A stretch of 64,000 bases of DNA. Source: Synechocystis sp. PCC 7509 (lineage in GTDB: Bacteria; Cyanobacteriota; Cyanobacteriia; Cyanobacteriales; Chroococcidiopsidaceae). The stretch covers positions 1,693,193-1,757,192 of the forward strand of contig NZ_ALVU02000001.1 in NCBI RefSeq assembly GCF_000332075.2, read 5' to 3'. Below, in pieces: positions 1 through 6,714 of this stretch (the first letter of the stretch is position 1; each line of letters begins with the position of its first letter). A program made the translations under genes and the position numbers. Below the pieces are notes generated by a model. The model was given only the letters and a program-made list of their open reading frames with translations. It was not told the origin of the DNA and did no database searches.

Positions 1-2
1 GT

Positions 3-1670
3 TCTCCGTTTTGTGGTGCGATCGCAGGTTTAACCCGTCGCCTTCTGCGCTTTGACAAATTTCCACCTGGTGAGCGAGAGCGCAACCACCTAACAGATAT
101 TCCAAAACGCTATGGGAATCCTCCCCAATGGCGGTTTTACAAAAACAAACCTGGACAGGATCTCTCTGCTGTTTCCCGTGATAAACTACGTTCTGCCATC
201 CGCAAATGCCATCAGACTCTTTGGGAAGGTGGTCGCCGTAGTCCAATTGCTGCTTTTGGCGAGTTTTGTAAGATTGTCTTTGTTAAACATCGAGATGAGA
301 AAAACGAAGATCGTCAAGATGGTGAACCTTATGCCTTTCAGCGTCGAGATGGTGAGAGCAGTGATGAGCTTGCTAAACGTATTTTTAAGCTTTATGCAAC
401 CGAACAGGAACAAGAACCAGGCGTTTTTACCGACCCAATTAATGTAGAGCCACCAGTCCTTGCACAGGTTGTCGAGCATTTAGAAGGAATTTCGCTCGAT
501 CGGACAGAACTTGATACAAAAGGTGTCGCTTTTGAGGAGTTCATGGGCGGTTTCTTCAAAGGTGATTTTGGTCAATACTTTACGCCTCGTGAACTTATCG
601 CTTTTTCTATCGAAGTGCTGAACCCAGAGCGTAAGCAGCTAGTGCTTGATCCTGCTTGTGGATCGGGGGGCTTTTTGCTTTATGCGCTTGACCACATTCG
701 CCGGGAAGCAAATCGCCGTTATCCTAATTATAAAACTGATTCGCCTCAAGGTATCAGTCATTACAAGCACTGGCATGACTTTGCAGAACATAATCTATTT
801 GGAATTGAAATCAATGAAGAACTAGCCCGTGTCGCCAAGATGAATATGATTATTCATGATGATGGTCATACCAATATTGTGGGACATGATGCGCTGGATT
901 TTTTGACTAAGTTAACTGCAATTAAGCCTGAGCTTGTTCCAGGTAAATTTGACTTAATCTTGACAAATCCGCCTTTCGGTTCGGTAGTCAAGGGAACTGA
1001 AAAAGGTGATGGGTATCTCGATCAGTTTGATTTACGTAGGTATTTGAACAAATCTACAACTGGTACAGAACCAGACGAATCCGAGCAAGGCGAGAGAGAT
1101 GCAAAGCGGGGAGCAAAAGCGGTAAAAGCCCGTACTAGCATCAAAACGGAAATTTTGTTTATAGAACGGGTTTGGTCTTATCTTAAGCCGGGTGAAGGGC
1201 GTGCAGCCATCGTATTACCTGACGGGATTCTTACTAATTCTTCACTGCAAGGGGTACGTAATTGGATGCTGTCACATTTCCAAATTCTGGCAGTAGTTAG
1301 CTTACCTCAGTTTGCTTTTGCTTATTACGATGCTGGGGTGAAAGCGAGTATTATTTTTCTCCGTCGATTGCAGGATGGGGAAACAGTACCCAATGATGCG
1401 CCGATTTTTATGGCGCTGGCTGAAAATATTGGCTATGACGCAACAGGACGGAAAACTTTTAATGTAACGGTCGAGAGTGAAATTCTAGAGAAAGAGAAAG
1501 TAGAGCGACAAAGCTGCGATCTGTTCGATTACCGCGTTTATTTTGAGTGGAGTACGGTTAATCCTAAAGAACCAGGATGGAGTGAACGTCACCGCGAAAT
1601 TATTCCTGATACTGGATTAGTTGCTCAGTGGCGAGAGTTTCAAAGAGATCCAACACCTTTTTTCGTCTAA
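3..1670 (+). CDS. hsdM: Type I restriction-modification DNA methylase subunit (HsdM), 5' end outside window
   Basis: The frame is open from the first bases of the window, so the start lies upstream and about 555 codons are seen. The product is an N6-adenine DNA methylase. Motif I, DPACGSGGF, lies early in the central part, and the catalytic NPPF motif follows about 110 residues later. This is the layout of HsdM (N6_Mtase family), which methylates host DNA and joins HsdS to form the modification core of a type I enzyme. The 3' end overlaps hsdS by 43 bases, which suggests translational coupling. No hsdR is visible; it may lie upstream. HIP1 octamers occur near the start, so base composition does not mark recent arrival. 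The family call is firm; the specificity is unknown. Confidence 0.9.
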   Translation, partial: SPFCGAIAGLTRRLLRFDKFPPGERERNHLTDIPKRYGNPPQWRFYKNKPGQDLSAVSRDKLRSAIRKCHQTLWEGGRRSPIAAFGEFCKIVFVKHRDEKNEDRQDGEPYAFQRRDGESSDELAKRIFKLYATEQEQEPGVFTDPINVEPPVLAQVVEHLEGISLDRTELDTKGVAFEEFMGGFFKGDFGQYFTPRELIAFSIEVLNPERKQLVLDPACGSGGFLLYALDHIRREANRRYPNYKTDSPQGISHYKHWHDFAEHNLFGIEINEELARVAKMNMIIHDDGHTNIVGHDALDFLTKLTAIKPELVPGKFDLILTNPPFGSVVKGTEKGDGYLDQFDLRRYLNKSTTGTEPDESEQGERDAKRGAKAVKARTSIKTEILFIERVWSYLKPGEGRAAIVLPDGILTNSSLQGVRNWMLSHFQILAVVSLPQFAFAYYDAGVKASIIFLRRLQDGETVPNDAPIFMALAENIGYDATGRKTFNVTVESEILEKEKVERQSCDLFDYRVYFEWSTVNPKEPGWSERHREIIPDTGLVAQWREFQRDPTPFFV

Positions 1671-3052
1671 GCCCCGATAGTGCAATTAGTTCTTGTTTTG
1701 CACTAAATCGGGGCAATCTAAAAGACAGATTGGATGCAAAATATTTTGCCTTGCGAGAAAACTTGTCATCCGTTAATTATCCATTGCAAAAGCTAGGAAG
1801 CTTGGTTATGCAAGAACCTGCTTATGGAGCGGCTTCCCGTGCTGTCCCTCGAATTAATCAAAATCAGCCCCGTTATATAAGAATTACAGATTTTGATGAT
1901 GACGGTATTGAGACAGATCACGAGTTTTTGACGGCTGATCCAGTTGATTTAGATCATGAACTTATCAAAGATGATTTGCTTTTTGCACGTAGTGGTGCAA
2001 CCGTTGGAAAAACCTACCTTCATGAAGATACAAGCGAACCTGCCATTTTTGCTGGCTATTGCATCCGCTTTAGACTAAATAAATACAATGTTTTGCCAAG
2101 ATTTGTTTACTTCTTTACAAAAACAGATGTTTATGCACGTTGGGTTGCAGCAATTCAACGTCCGTCTGGACAGCCAAACATCAATAAGGAAGAGTTCAAG
2201 AACATACAAATACCAGTGCCGCCAATCGCAACACAAACTGAACTTGTTGCTGCTATGGATGAGGCGCGATCGCAGCGAAAACAAAAACTAGCACAAGCCG
2301 ATGCTCTCCTTTCTAGTCTTGATAATTATCTACTAAATACTCTTGGACTCGATCGTCCCGATAAAGACGATCGTAAGGTGTTTTCCATCCAATGCTCTGG
2401 TATTAACGGACGCTTTGATCCTCATTTTCATGCTCCTAGCTTTAAACAAGTCAGCCGCTTACTTTCCACAACTATTACTGCATCTCTTGGATCGCTAGTG
2501 AGTTTTTCTAAAGAAACTTGGAAGCTTGAAGATGATGAAAATTCTACGTTTCGTTATATCGAAATTAGCAATGTAAAGCCAGAAACAGGAGAAGCAAGGT
2601 GGTCAGAAGTTCCTGTAAAGGAAGCTCCTAGTCGCGCTCGAATGGTTGTTCGCACAGATGATATTATTGTTAGCCTTACTCGTCCTCATCACGGATCTAT
2701 TGCCTACCTTTCTACTGAATTTGACGGTTGTATTGCATCAACTGGTTTTGCTGTAATTCGTTATGTCAGTAAATTAGTTGATCGAGATTACCTCTGGTGC
2801 GTTCTGCGCTCTCAGATTTGTCTTCAGCAAATGCTTCAGCGTTCTAGTGGTGGTAACTACCCTGCAATCATTAAGTCAGAATTGGAAAATGTTATTGTCC
2901 CTGTACCAGGTATGGCTATACAGAAGACTGTCGTTGCTGAAGTGCAAAACCGTCGTAACGAAGCCCGACGTTTGCGATCGCAAGCAGATAGAGGTTGGCA
3001 AGAAGCTAAGAAATGGTTTGAAGAACAACTACTTGGAGCCAAACCTTTATGA
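1628..3052 (+). CDS. hsdS: Type I restriction-modification specificity subunit (HsdS)
   Basis: HsdS chooses the DNA target of the type I complex. The 474-residue protein has two target-recognition halves. TRD1 covers about residues 45-205 and ends in IPVPPIATQTEL, followed by a helical spacer (about 205-240). TRD2 covers about 275-425, ends in VIVPVPGMAIQ and is followed by a second helix. That is the standard two-TRD, two-helix plan and a normal length. The start is a GTG inside the end of hsdM; no other good start lies nearby, so overlap and coupling are likely. The stop overlaps the next gene by 4 bases (ATGA). Each half-site recognised cannot be read from the sequence. Confidence 0.9.
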   Translation: MARVSKRSNTFFRLSPDSAISSCFALNRGNLKDRLDAKYFALRENLSSVNYPLQKLGSLVMQEPAYGAASRAVPRINQNQPRYIRITDFDDDGIETDHEFLTADPVDLDHELIKDDLLFARSGATVGKTYLHEDTSEPAIFAGYCIRFRLNKYNVLPRFVYFFTKTDVYARWVAAIQRPSGQPNINKEEFKNIQIPVPPIATQTELVAAMDEARSQRKQKLAQADALLSSLDNYLLNTLGLDRPDKDDRKVFSIQCSGINGRFDPHFHAPSFKQVSRLLSTTITASLGSLVSFSKETWKLEDDENSTFRYIEISNVKPETGEARWSEVPVKEAPSRARMVVRTDDIIVSLTRPHHGSIAYLSTEFDGCIASTGFAVIRYVSKLVDRDYLWCVLRSQICLQQMLQRSSGGNYPAIIKSELENVIVPVPGMAIQKTVVAEVQNRRNEARRLRSQADRGWQEAKKWFEEQLLGAKPL

Positions 3053-3951
3053 TATTTGAGTTTCTAATTTTTTATCAGGAAAAGATTGGAACAGATATCT
3101 GTACGACTTTATTTGAATTACTATCTCAAATAATAGATGACCTAGAAATATATTTTGATGACTTTAATAGTGACGAAGTAAAGCAAATGCTTATCTTTCG
3201 TCACAAGAGGTTGGGCGATGAGACAGTAGATCAAGATGGAAATACCTTATGTAATACGATTTTTGGTTTTGCACTTGAACTACCCGAAGATACGGACGAA
3301 GCACAGGCTTTAGTTGAAAAGTTTTCTCAAGCTCTAGCTGAAACGGATCTCATTTCCCATGTTGTTAAATTTGAAGATCTATTGCTCTGTAAGAACCTTA
3401 TTCAATGGTCTAAAGGAATTTTTTTACTCGAAATGAAGTTACGGCGCGTTTTAACATTAATCTATCTTAATGCTTACCAAGGAGACTTTTACAACTTATT
3501 GCGTGAGGAAATCGTCAAATGTACGTCGCAGCCAACTGCTGAAGAAATGCAAAACACAAGAGAAAATCATTTTTTTCATCTTACTTTCAGTCAATATGTC
3601 CAACTAAACAATCGTCCTGATCCTCAACTACGCGATTTACTATCAAACATTCGTAATTCTGAAAGCTATGATTCTTTATATGCAGAATTAAATCGAAAGC
3701 CAGTTCAAAATCAGAATGATGCAGCTTTATTGCTAGATATTAAAGACAAGATGGGTGCAATCGAGAAGATGCGTAACTGTGTAGCTCATAATCGTCAACC
3801 ATCTCGAAGAACAATAGATAGTTATGACCTTGCTTATCAAGAAGTTAATGATTTGCTTAATAAATATCTCGATCGATGGAATTGGCAAGAGGCTAACGAA
3901 AGTGAAGAAGAAGCTTCCAGCCTCAAGCAATCAGAGGAAGGAGAGAATTAA
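3049..3951 (+). CDS. Unknown protein with a HEPN-like RNxxAH motif, third gene of the type I R-M operon
   Basis: This 300-residue acidic, largely helical protein starts at an ATG overlapping the hsdS stop by 4 bases, so it is translationally coupled to the restriction genes. No full-length family was recognised. Near the C-terminus, residues 242-247 read RNCVAH, in a helix preceded by KMGAIEKM and followed by DLAYQEVNDLL. This fits the Rx4-6H (often RNxxAH) signature of HEPN ribonucleases. HEPN nucleases are known beside type I systems, PrrC beside EcoprrI being the classic case, where they act as a second line when restriction is blocked. Here the link is inferred from the operon and one motif. 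It could instead be a non-catalytic HEPN partner. Confidence 0.6.
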   Translation: MIFEFLIFYQEKIGTDICTTLFELLSQIIDDLEIYFDDFNSDEVKQMLIFRHKRLGDETVDQDGNTLCNTIFGFALELPEDTDEAQALVEKFSQALAETDLISHVVKFEDLLLCKNLIQWSKGIFLLEMKLRRVLTLIYLNAYQGDFYNLLREEIVKCTSQPTAEEMQNTRENHFFHLTFSQYVQLNNRPDPQLRDLLSNIRNSESYDSLYAELNRKPVQNQNDAALLLDIKDKMGAIEKMRNCVAHNRQPSRRTIDSYDLAYQEVNDLLNKYLDRWNWQEANESEEEASSLKQSEEGEN

Positions 3952-3958
3952 CAAATCG

Positions 3959-4090
3959 ATGAAACCGACTGCCGAAAGGTTATTTAGTGAGTATTTCAGG
4001 TTATCTAAGGCGGCTCCTCTCAATGGCTATCTTACTTTGCTTACTTTGCTGAGGTGGAGCTTGAAAGCGATCGCACTTCGCATTGATTAG
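3959..4090 (+). CDS. Possible 43-residue ORF after the HEPN gene
   Basis: An ATG lies 8 bases after the stop of the HEPN-like gene, with GGAGAG about 13 bases upstream, and opens a 43-codon frame ending at 4090. The predicted peptide is basic with a short hydrophobic stretch (LTLLTLLRW) and resembles nothing recognised. The end overlaps a HIP1 site. It may be chance; the spacer to 4170 otherwise shows only HIP1 octamers. Confidence 0.2.
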   Translation: MKPTAERLFSEYFRLSKAAPLNGYLTLLTLLRWSLKAIALRID

Positions 4091-4170
4091 GCTTGGGATC
4101 AGAGGAAAGATATCTAAATGCGATCGCAATGGCGAAGGCTGTTCCTTTGAGTTTCAGGCTTTCATTGATG

Positions 4171-4716
4171 TTAATTCATTAATCTTTTTACCTGGATTTG
4201 TACATCAGGAAAGAATTGAGGAGAAACAACCCCAGTTGTAAAGGTTTCTTCTGTGACATAGCACTCGTTTTCTAAGTCTCGAAAAACTGAGACTTTCCGA
4301 CCAGTAAGATTTACTACCCAATATTCAGCGATACCTGCTTGGCTATAAACTGCTTTTTTCTCGTTTAGGTCTTTGCTAAGAGTAGTATTAGAGAACTCAA
4401 TTAACCAAAAAATATCGTCAGGATAGGGATGATGTTCTAGATAGATTGCACCTAATGGTTTAACAATTGCCAAGTCTGGGACGGGTTCGGAGTCATTGGG
4501 CAAGGTAATGGGGTGCGCCTCGCGGATTTTGACACTATTTCCGAGAATAGTTCGCAAATAATCTCCAACTTCACTATTGTAGTAAGCGTGGGTTTCTCGC
4601 TCTGGGGGCATAACTACAATAGCTCCGCGCAATAACTCGACGGGCTGATCGTCAAATAGTCCCGCATCGATCGCCTGATGGTAACGTTCAATTGTCCATT
4701 TGTAAGTAGTAGTCAT
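4171..4716 (-). CDS. Uma2 family (DUF820) PD-(D/E)XK-fold protein
   Basis: The 181-residue protein has the Uma2 plan: an N-terminal RYHQAIDAGLFDDQPVELLRG helix-strand, then PDLAIVKP, then FWLIEFSNTTLSKDLNEKKAVY, which carries the E-x-S and K of the nuclease-like core, and an AEYWVVNL strand. Uma2 proteins have a restriction-endonuclease fold and are greatly expanded in cyanobacteria; their function is mostly undefined. It stands alone between the type I operon and the sulfonate operon. This is one of three Uma2 genes in the window (also 22717 and 53127). Confidence 0.85.
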   Translation of the reverse strand: MTTTYKWTIERYHQAIDAGLFDDQPVELLRGAIVVMPPERETHAYYNSEVGDYLRTILGNSVKIREAHPITLPNDSEPVPDLAIVKPLGAIYLEHHPYPDDIFWLIEFSNTTLSKDLNEKKAVYSQAGIAEYWVVNLTGRKVSVFRDLENECYVTEETFTTGVVSPQFFPDVQIQVKRLMN

Positions 4717-4790
4717 AGTAATCTAGCCTGAGAACGCATAGATGTTTTTATTATGCCTTGCTTGGCGATCGCCGCTTTTAAAATCAATAG

Positions 4791-5969
4791 TTACGAATAA
4801 AAATTAGGCTTTGGTAGTTGTTCGTTGAGTAGCCAATTGCCAATGTCAAGCACCTTATAATCTATAGGATCGTGCAAGGTAAAGGTGCGGAGGTTGCGCC
4901 AGTAGCGGTCAAAACCGTATTTCCCCGTTGTAGCACGTGCGCCCATAACTTCAAATATTTGACTCGTAATATCTAAACCTACTTTAGTCGCTGCAACTTT
5001 TGCCGTTGCGATCGCAATTGCACATTCTCCTCTTTGTTCTGCTGTTAAATTCCATTCCTGTTCCCAAGCATTTTGTAGCAATTCTCCAGCAATATCTGTC
5101 AAACAAGTTGCGCCTTGCAACTCTACCCACATATTGCCGTAGTGCTGGAGAATATAAGGGTCAACGGTTGCGCTTTCTACTCCCGAAGTTAGCCAAGGCT
5201 TTGTAGAGGTACGGGTATATTGTTTAGCGGCGGCTAATGCACCTTGAGCAATTCCTAGATAGATATTGGCAAGATTTAACTGTGTCAGACAGGCGCGGAT
5301 TGTATTAAAAGGTGTTGGAGTGCGATCGCGCAGCGCTAAAATCTCATCTTCGTACACTACTACGTTATCAAATACAATGCTGCCGCTATCGGTCTGGCGC
5401 TGTCCCATGTTATCCCAATCATCTTGAATATTTATGCCTTGTCTTTGGGTGGGAATCGCTAATATAGTTATTTCATCATTATTAGTAGCAGTAATTGGTA
5501 AGATATCTGAGTCTTTAGAGCCAGAACAGAAACTTTTAACCCCATTGAGCCGAAAATTATTACCATCAGGAGTTAAAGTAGTTCGCCGATCTAAAGGGTT
5601 TAAAGCATTGCACCAAAACCAGTTATTTTCGATGGTTTTTGAGTAATATTGCTCTTTTTGGGCTTCTGAGCCGAAAATGTGCGGGATAATTACGCCTAAA
5701 TGGTGATACGAAAAGACATGAGCAATAGAACTATCAGCTTTAGCTAATTCGCGGCTAATTTTGAGCGTAGTAATCCAAGTTTCACCTAAACCACCATACT
5801 CTTTGGGGATGATAAGTTTGAGTAAACCGCTTTGACGGAGGCGATCGCGTTCTTGTTTTGGCGTACCTCCTTTAGCATCTCGTTCTACGGCGGTAATCGC
5901 AAATTCTTCCGCTAAAGCCGTCGCCAACGTAAGGTAATCAAGGGATGTTTTAGATTTTAATAGCTGCAT
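4791..5969 (-). CDS. Acyl-CoA dehydrogenase-fold flavin monooxygenase, SfnB/DszC-like (organosulfur use)
   Basis: About 392 residues with the acyl-CoA dehydrogenase layout: an N-terminal helical domain with LKLIIPKEYGGLGE, a middle beta domain (FWCNALNPLD, FCSGSKDSD, GSIVFDNVVV) and a C-terminal helical domain with GARATTGKYGFDRYWRN. In the SfnB/DszC branch, reduced flavin and oxygen oxidise organic sulfur compounds so that sulfite can be released. That role fits the neighbours: it is the last gene of an operon with SsuA, SsuC and SsuB-like transport genes. ATG at 5969 is preferred over a TTG at 5975; either overlaps the end of the ATPase gene. The substrate is unknown; sulfones, sulfonates and thiophene-like compounds are all possible. 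Confidence 0.8.
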   Translation of the reverse strand: MQLLKSKTSLDYLTLATALAEEFAITAVERDAKGGTPKQERDRLRQSGLLKLIIPKEYGGLGETWITTLKISRELAKADSSIAHVFSYHHLGVIIPHIFGSEAQKEQYYSKTIENNWFWCNALNPLDRRTTLTPDGNNFRLNGVKSFCSGSKDSDILPITATNNDEITILAIPTQRQGINIQDDWDNMGQRQTDSGSIVFDNVVVYEDEILALRDRTPTPFNTIRACLTQLNLANIYLGIAQGALAAAKQYTRTSTKPWLTSGVESATVDPYILQHYGNMWVELQGATCLTDIAGELLQNAWEQEWNLTAEQRGECAIAIATAKVAATKVGLDITSQIFEVMGARATTGKYGFDRYWRNLRTFTLHDPIDYKVLDIGNWLLNEQLPKPNFYS

Positions 5970-6714
5970 TTTCAACTAGCATAGTTTTTTCAAAAAGGTC
6001 TAGAGAATTAAGAATTTGTTCTTTCCAGCGCTGAAAAGTGACCGTTGTACGCTGGCGAGGACGGGGAAGATCGATTATGTATTCTTGCAAAACTTGTCCG
6101 GGATTGCCACCCATAACAATAATGCGATCGCTTAATACTAATGCTTCCTCAATATCGTGGGTAACTAACAGCATTGTCGGGCGATCGTAGTCCCAAATTT
6201 GTAGTAGATGCTTTTGTAATTTAAGGCGCGTAAAGGCATCTAGGGCGCTAAAAGGCTCGTCTAATAGCAAAACAGAAGGATTTGTAATTAAAGCGCGCGC
6301 GATCGCTACTCTTTGCGCCATTCCTCCCGATAACTGTCTTGGCAAAGCTTGAGCAAATTGAGCTAACCCAACTCGCTCTAAGATAGAAGTTGCTTTCTGG
6401 GCTTTTTCCCTTGGGGAAATACGTTCTAAACCAAATTCAATATTTTTTCGCACTGTCAACCATGGCATTAAACGCGGTTCTTGAAAAACAATGCCAACGG
6501 CGGGATGAGGAGAATTAATAGTTTTTTTGGCAATAATTACGCGCCCGGATGTTGGTTTATCTAACCCTGCAACCATTCGGAGTAAGGTACTTTTACCGCA
6601 ACCACTCGTTCCTACTAAGCTGACAATTTCCCCGGTGTTTACCTGTAAGCTGACATTATCTAGGGCGACAAACTTATTTAAAAATTGCTTGGTAACACTT
6701 TCAACTTGCAGCAT
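5950..6714 (-). CDS. ssuB: ABC transporter ATP-binding protein, SsuB/TauB type
   Basis: The 254-residue ATPase has Walker A GTSGCGKST, a Q-loop in VFQEPRLMPW, signature LSGGMAQR, Walker [13 protein letters not shown] and the H-loop THD. The RLMPW Q-loop is typical of nitrate/sulfonate/taurine importers. The ATG at 6714 is chosen because AAGGAAATT directly precedes it; an upstream in-frame start at 6741 would overlap the permease further. It energises import by the neighbouring permease (6722-7534) and lipoprotein (7536-8522). The sulfonate assignment rests on the SfnB-like enzyme beside it and on the cys genes upstream; nitrate-type importers share the fold. Confidence 0.88.
   Translation of the reverse strand: MLQVESVTKQFLNKFVALDNVSLQVNTGEIVSLVGTSGCGKSTLLRMVAGLDKPTSGRVIIAKKTINSPHPAVGIVFQEPRLMPWLTVRKNIEFGLERISPREKAQKATSILERVGLAQFAQALPRQLSGGMAQRVAIARALITNPSVLLLDEPFSALDAFTRLKLQKHLLQIWDYDRPTMLLVTHDIEEALVLSDRIIVMGGNPGQVLQEYIIDLPRPRQRTTVTFQRWKEQILNSLDLFEKTMLVENAAIKI

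Follow-up and report, generated by a model that had tools for sequence, protein, structure and literature searches.

A predicted HEPN ribonuclease gene overlaps a BcgI/BsaXI-like restriction–modification system in Synechocystis sp. PCC 7509

In Synechocystis sp. PCC 7509, the gene of a compact protein that we call X directly follows a restriction–modification (R-M) pair, composed of a fused nuclease–methyltransferase (RM) and a specificity subunit (S). We analysed it within a window of 64,000 nucleotides, the whole stretch from position 1,693,193 to 1,757,192 of contig NZ_ALVU02000001.1. The C-terminal domain of X is very probably a HEPN domain, and profile and fold evidence makes both the HEPN fold and ribonuclease (RNase) activity likely. 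In our best model, to which we give an even chance of being right, X is an RNase that RM-S keeps latent and whose release provides a second line of defence.

The features of the locus are collected in Table 1. Position and four-base overlap of the X gene agree with those given in a preliminary description of this DNA: S ends at 3052, within the ATGA that also holds the start codon of X. This arrangement makes translational coupling of X to S likely.

Table 1 Features of the RM-S-X locus, in window coordinates.
Feature	Position	Strand	Basis
RM, fused PD-(D/E)XK nuclease and N6-adenine methyltransferase, 681 aa	1..1670 (part within the window)	+	HSDR_N_2, N6_Mtase
S, specificity subunit with two target-recognition domains, 474 aa	1628..3052	+	Methylase_S, two stretches, E 7.2e-19
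ATGA shared by S stop and X start	3049..3052	+	4-base overlap
X, predicted HEPN ribonuclease, 300 aa	3049..3951	+	ORF call, ATG start
X N-terminal domain, residues 1-108, predicted ferredoxin/ACT-like alpha-beta fold	3049..3372	+	structure prediction
X C-terminal helical domain, residues 109-277, HEPN-like	3373..3879	+	conservation, profiles, predicted structure
RNCVAH, predicted HEPN active site, R242-x4-H247	3772..3789	+	motif and alignment

To judge by its domains, the restriction system is BcgI/BsaXI-like, of type IIB/IIG, and not a classic type I system, since nuclease and methyltransferase are fused in one chain (HSDR_N_2, E 2.2e-9; N6_Mtase, E 3.1e-34), the best solved relative of RM is RM.BsaXI (E 1.1e-31), ahead of type I M subunits, and no hsdR lies near RM-S, the nearest match in the genome being about 1.04 Mb away. 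The RM gene starts 376 bases upstream of the window (G000:C1:1692817-1694859; L005:16818-18863); the supposed hsdM, described as having its start within the window, corresponds to the 3′ portion of this gene. The portion in the window carries the methyltransferase motifs DPACGSGGF and NPPF, and the sequence of the nuclease motif precedes the window. All of D, E-x-K, DPAxGSGGF and NPPF are retained in the RM proteins compared (8/8). An assignment to MADS was rejected: against the NCBIfam cut-offs of 720 and 400 bits, MAD2 scores 240 (RM from window position 543 on) and MAD5 79. Nothing relevant to MADS came up in the literature search. Outside the window, between RM and its upstream gene, lie open reading frames that we take to be transposase-like (L005:15862-16603); in genome G516, of the same genus, that upstream gene adjoins RM directly.

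A fused nuclease/N6-methyltransferase with a separate S of two target-recognition domains (TRDs) is the arrangement found here, and the same N-terminal PD-(D/E)XK fusion and two-TRD S are described for BcgI and BsaXI, both (RM)2S enzymes, in the portions of PMC11997821 and PMC3874165 cited here. There they consist of two subunits, whereas the X locus has a third, coupled gene, for the HEPN protein.

No match in Pfam, NCBIfam or PADLOC assigns the X protein to a family, Pfam finds no ATPase domain in it, and a search of PDB sequences returned chance matches only. The N-terminal domain has a predicted beta-alpha-beta-beta-alpha-beta topology. In the C-terminal part, helices are predicted at residues 111-142, 222-246, with the motif at its end, and 253-276 (pLDDT 68-70). 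RNCVAH, at residues 242-247 as described before, is the only RxxxxH of the protein. In 20,000 shuffles of X, RxxxxH appears in 22.8% and RNxxxH in 2.0%; a single RxxxxH is therefore weak evidence, and RNCVAH rises above chance because R242, N243 and H247 are conserved among homologues.

X is rare. Relatives were found in 4 of 386 genomes of a phylum sample, in 3 of 388 of a class sample (one of them a fragment) and in 7 of 388 of an order sample, of which five are real; these samples overlap, so their counts are not additive. The two weak rows removed from the order sample (G589 and G486, E about 0.005, with internal stops) overlap unrelated genes. A sample of the order of genome G136, likewise overlapping with others, has relatives in 3 of 146 genomes. 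Scanning the contigs of named genomes with X alone, without a profile, yielded no relatives; the same scan with an alignment of X yielded seven loci, one of which was removed (L015, from Bacillus, E 1e-4), its match overlying an unrelated gene, presumably of riboflavin type. Among the plasmids, phages and viral contigs searched, relatives of X were absent.

With duplicates merged (L009-L011 are L006, L007 and L024; L014 is G136/L008) and each genome counted once, ten distinct intact members remain. They come from the window, Dolichospermum (L006), Microcystis (L007), G409 (L023), the filamentous cyanobacterium ESFC-1 (L024), a Methanophagales archaeon (L012), G674 (L075), two Gastranaerophilales (L013, L014) and G683 (L076). 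Their alignment has 17 invariant columns out of 300. R, N and H of the motif are among them, kept in 10/10 at identities down to 17%; a motif that varies among homologues, which the preliminary description named as a refutation, was thus not what we observed. Other invariant residues are I102, K107 and D110, just past the N-terminal domain, E128, M129 and R132 in the first long helix, and a group around residues 151-183; before residue 100 there are only F5 and G73. The gene is under purifying selection, with dN/dS of about 0.16, 0.22 and 0.11 in three close pairs. The archaeal X (L012:9827-11164) has some 150 additional C-terminal residues, among them C-x2-C pairs suggestive of a zinc ribbon, and an acidic tail made of repeats.

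We consider a HEPN domain likely because the motif is conserved, Abi_2 matches occur, if weakly, a profile match falls on the motif and the predicted structure has Csm6' as neighbour. These lines of evidence agree, and none is decisive singly; together with the motif conservation they support the reading of X as an Rx4H protein of HEPN type that the preliminary description proposed. Abi_2 (PF07751) matches weakly in 4 of 8 homologues scanned (best E 3e-4) and also in L075 (E 1.6e-3), below the curated cut-off of 25.6 bits wherever a score is given (21.6 for L012, 19.2 for L075), and the Pfam scan gave no Abi_2 match for the window protein itself. Matches to two further HEPN families are faint (MAE_28990, E 0.023; pEK499_p136, E 0.25). 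A Pfam search for Abi_2 in 40 relatives had no matches, its controls being likewise silent. The C-terminal profile of X was compared with seven Abi_2 proteins found in 146 genomes of the cyanobacterial phylum. It matches them over 33 columns centred on the motif, RNCVAHN against RNICAHH, with a score of 31.7, where none of 60 column-shuffled decoys exceeds 16.8 and the reversed alignment scores 12.1; hhalign gives the same match a probability of only 27%.

Structure models of X are modest (pLDDT 70, and 68 for the C-terminal part alone). This part was predicted on its own because the structural matches of the whole-protein model covered the N-terminal domain only. In the resulting model the motif terminates a long helix. 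Its top neighbour among the re-aligned PDB chains is the HEPN part of Csm6' (8pe3_A, Z 8.1, rmsd 2.5, 101 residues aligned), a Z in the range that, by the tool's own warning, is common for helical bundles. Near the top we also find 2q00_B (Z 7.0, rmsd 3.0, 98 aligned), which the part of PMC3710099 cited here classes under HEPN-T, and an unrelated helical protein with the same Z and poor rmsd. Foldseek with the C-terminal part found nothing significant among PDB and viral models (best E 0.63). Projected from the alignment ends, with no residue alignment, R242 and H247 fall within one residue of R331 and H336 of Csm6', whose mutation abolished RNA cleavage according to the cited section of PMC10702470. 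A HEPN bundle, whose prediction was proposed earlier as a check, is predicted with only modest confidence (pLDDT 68), though the top structural neighbour is a HEPN RNase.

Seven of the ten intact members have the order RM-S-X, in cyanobacteria, a Gastranaerophilales-order genome and an archaeon. In all seven loci S and X lie close, with overlaps of 4, 4, 4, 11 and 17 bases and gaps of 2 and 2. Of the conservation beside type I R-M genes that was expected for X, the adjacency to R-M genes stands (7/10) and the type does not, since RM is fused, RM.BsaXI-like and without hsdR nearby. The operon of G674 contains a DUF3800 gene inserted between RM and S (L075:5865-6557). That of G409 has an N-terminally short S frame of 358 aa (L023:9273-10349) next to intact RM and X.

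The remaining three X genes come after the gene of a GHKL-type ATPase whose C-terminus weakly resembles nucleases. These two-gene units belong to three Gastranaerophilales-order genomes (L013:7864-10519, L014:7867-10519 and L076:6280-9043), and the ATPase/nuclease-like protein, of 629-630 aa, is labelled 'REase_II' by PADLOC. The pair it forms with X looks like a defence module in its own right.

The close relatives of RM include a case of loss of X. Proteins at least 83% identical to RM occur in 6 of 388 genomes of the order, five of which have an intact X. In the sixth, G516 (RM 96% identical), RM and S are open and X is reduced to a 53-codon remnant, which resembles X residues 1-53 (L055:7121-7246, E 0.002) and stands just after RM-S, followed by an unrelated gene. 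The dN/dS between the RM genes of G516 and the window is about 0.14. As G516 kept RM-S intact with only a remnant of X, X is dispensable to RM-S. Also downstream of RM-S in G516 is a stretch of 51 bases, 92% identical to the methyltransferase region of RM (L055:6363-6413), perhaps the leftover of a second RM copy. A more distant RM, in G394 (59%), has no X behind its S.

Among the intact X genes found, none lacks a partner (0/10). The single X without nearby R-M genes, in G851, is 5′-truncated, a C-terminal fragment of 130 aa beside what we take to be a transposase remnant. A protein with the motif RNVIVH, presumably HepT/DUF86-like, adjoins this fragment (L098:209-700).

The recognition domains of S vary independently of X. 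Compared with the window, TRD1 and TRD2 are 75% and 25% identical in L006, 34% and 74% in L007, and 32% and 23% in L024: either domain has been exchanged on its own while X was retained. Altogether, and with small numbers, X is optional for RM-S, independent of the recognised DNA sequence and apparently not kept alone. Such a distribution would be expected if X were an effector that its partner keeps from doing harm.

Known systems resemble X in part. PrrC of EcoprrI, a type IC system, is also a HEPN RNase sharing its operon with a restriction enzyme that methylates and is sequence-specific, and it is proposed to be a latent second line. As far as the cited parts of PMC3710099 and PMC3874165 describe it, PrrC carries an ABC-type NTPase at its N-terminus and has a three-subunit type I partner with an hsdMSR operon; the X locus has neither, with a ferredoxin/ACT-like N-terminus in X and a nuclease already fused into its partner RM. 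That the layout of X differs from PrrC, as it has no ABC ATPase, had been pointed out before and is borne out here. The Abi_2 (AbiF-AbiD) proteins share with X the motif RN-x-x-AH, the local profile match and the weak Abi_2 matches, and they are reported as embedded in R-M operons in the passages cited from PMC3710099; X scores below the Abi_2 cut-off and has another N-terminal domain. No abiF RNA (RF03085) reaches the gathering score in window positions 1-6000 or in six loci with X homologues. Csm6/Csx1 of type III CRISPR systems have the Rx4H motif and provide the best structural neighbour of the predicted X domain; X itself has no CARF domain, and its neighbourhood showed no sign of CRISPR. 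The GHKL-linked members recall paraMORC-HEPN (Ymh), where a GHKL ATPase is tied to HEPN in restriction neighbourhoods (PMC3710099, in the part cited); in L013, L014 and L076 the GHKL protein has a nuclease-like C-terminal part of its own and the HEPN domain is in a separate gene of the X family. The PADLOC label PDC-M34B also matches in L012 (E 6.8e-4), and our literature search found no paper on it.

We propose that RM and S would form a restriction enzyme methylating self DNA and cutting unmethylated DNA, and that X, made by translation coupled to that of S, would be silenced by the RM-S complex. Once RM-S is engaged, overwhelmed or inhibited by a phage, a HEPN dimer of X would be freed or switched on; active X would then cut RNA, either tRNA or mRNA, and growth would stop. 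The model builds on observed gene order and overlap, the conserved Rx4H motif, the intact catalytic motifs of RM and the case in which X was lost and RM-S kept. For silencing by RM-S, for the trigger and for the RNA target it follows PrrC/PrrI, which X may resemble in these respects; the latent RNase also accords with what PMC3710099 proposes in general. The three-gene set, which recurs in other cyanobacteria and an archaeon, has the look of a reserve defence linked to the restriction enzyme. As three X homologues adjoin a quite different nuclease, silencing specifically by RM-S cannot be a general rule.

Those three members are better explained if foreign DNA, once RM-S or the GHKL nuclease encounters or cuts it, leads directly to activation of X, and RNA and DNA are attacked together; the ferredoxin/ACT-like N-terminus would then sense the state of the partner, DNA ends or a small ligand. 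We regard this as possible, though somewhat doubtful. One X family behind two unrelated DNA-cutting machines suits a shared signal that DNA is being cut, and the additional N-terminal domain, with a predicted fold of a common regulatory type, also speaks for direct activation; no ligand site is evident in X, however, and N-terminal conservation is low. Overall, direct activation fits almost as well as a latent RNase held by RM-S. We also put forward, tentatively, that X is a plug-in RNase effector, in which a HEPN domain and a ferredoxin/ACT-like coupling domain would be wired to BcgI-like RM-S and to the GHKL-ATPase nuclease alike and triggered by a state common to both.

It is unlikely that X is the toxin of an addiction unit, with RM-S or another element as antitoxin, that mainly stabilises the R-M island and does not respond to phages. 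The asymmetric loss would agree, a partner without X existing in G516 and no intact X without partner having been seen, although sequence alone does not part addiction from a latent RNase guarded by RM-S, and neither abiF RNA nor any other Rfam antitoxin RNA was found in window positions 1-6000 or the six loci. The close spacing to S in 7/7 could also mean that X serves the restriction enzyme as a structural or regulatory subunit, acting in assembly or control of cutting, with a non-catalytic HEPN domain that binds RNA or dimerises. This seems improbable: the active-site R, N and H are invariant in 10/10, RM-S of G516 stayed intact after losing X, and members of the X family also occur without RM-S. 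Hardly credible, finally, is a coincidental motif in a helical protein of other function; the chance rate of RxxxxH, the missing match to a curated family and the modest models would allow it, against which stand the motif kept in every intact member, the Abi_2 matches, the profile match on the motif and Csm6' as top neighbour.

Linkage of HEPN proteins to R-M systems has been known since 2013. In the sections of PMC3710099 cited here it includes Abi2-type HEPN proteins in R-M operons and HEPN proteins with GHKL ATPases, and HEPN RNases beside restriction systems are predicted to be reserve weapons. Among the matches listed in our literature search, no paper linking HEPN with type IIB/IIG R-M systems stood out. 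Within our family and literature searches, the X family itself appears to be new, as do its layout, its two-subunit nuclease–methylase partner, its spread across cyanobacteria and into an archaeon, and its additional occurrence next to a GHKL nuclease.

The worked example, PrrC, has its own NTPase sensor, whereas X is compact, without ATPase, and coupled to the simplest, two-protein, methylating restriction enzymes, over a very wide host range. If X is indeed a plug-in effector, DNA cutting would be converted into RNA-based growth arrest. The GHKL-nuclease-linked relatives and the natural deletion of X within the same genus, in G516, are ready-made controls, and how a restriction enzyme holds and releases an RNase becomes a question testable with three genes.
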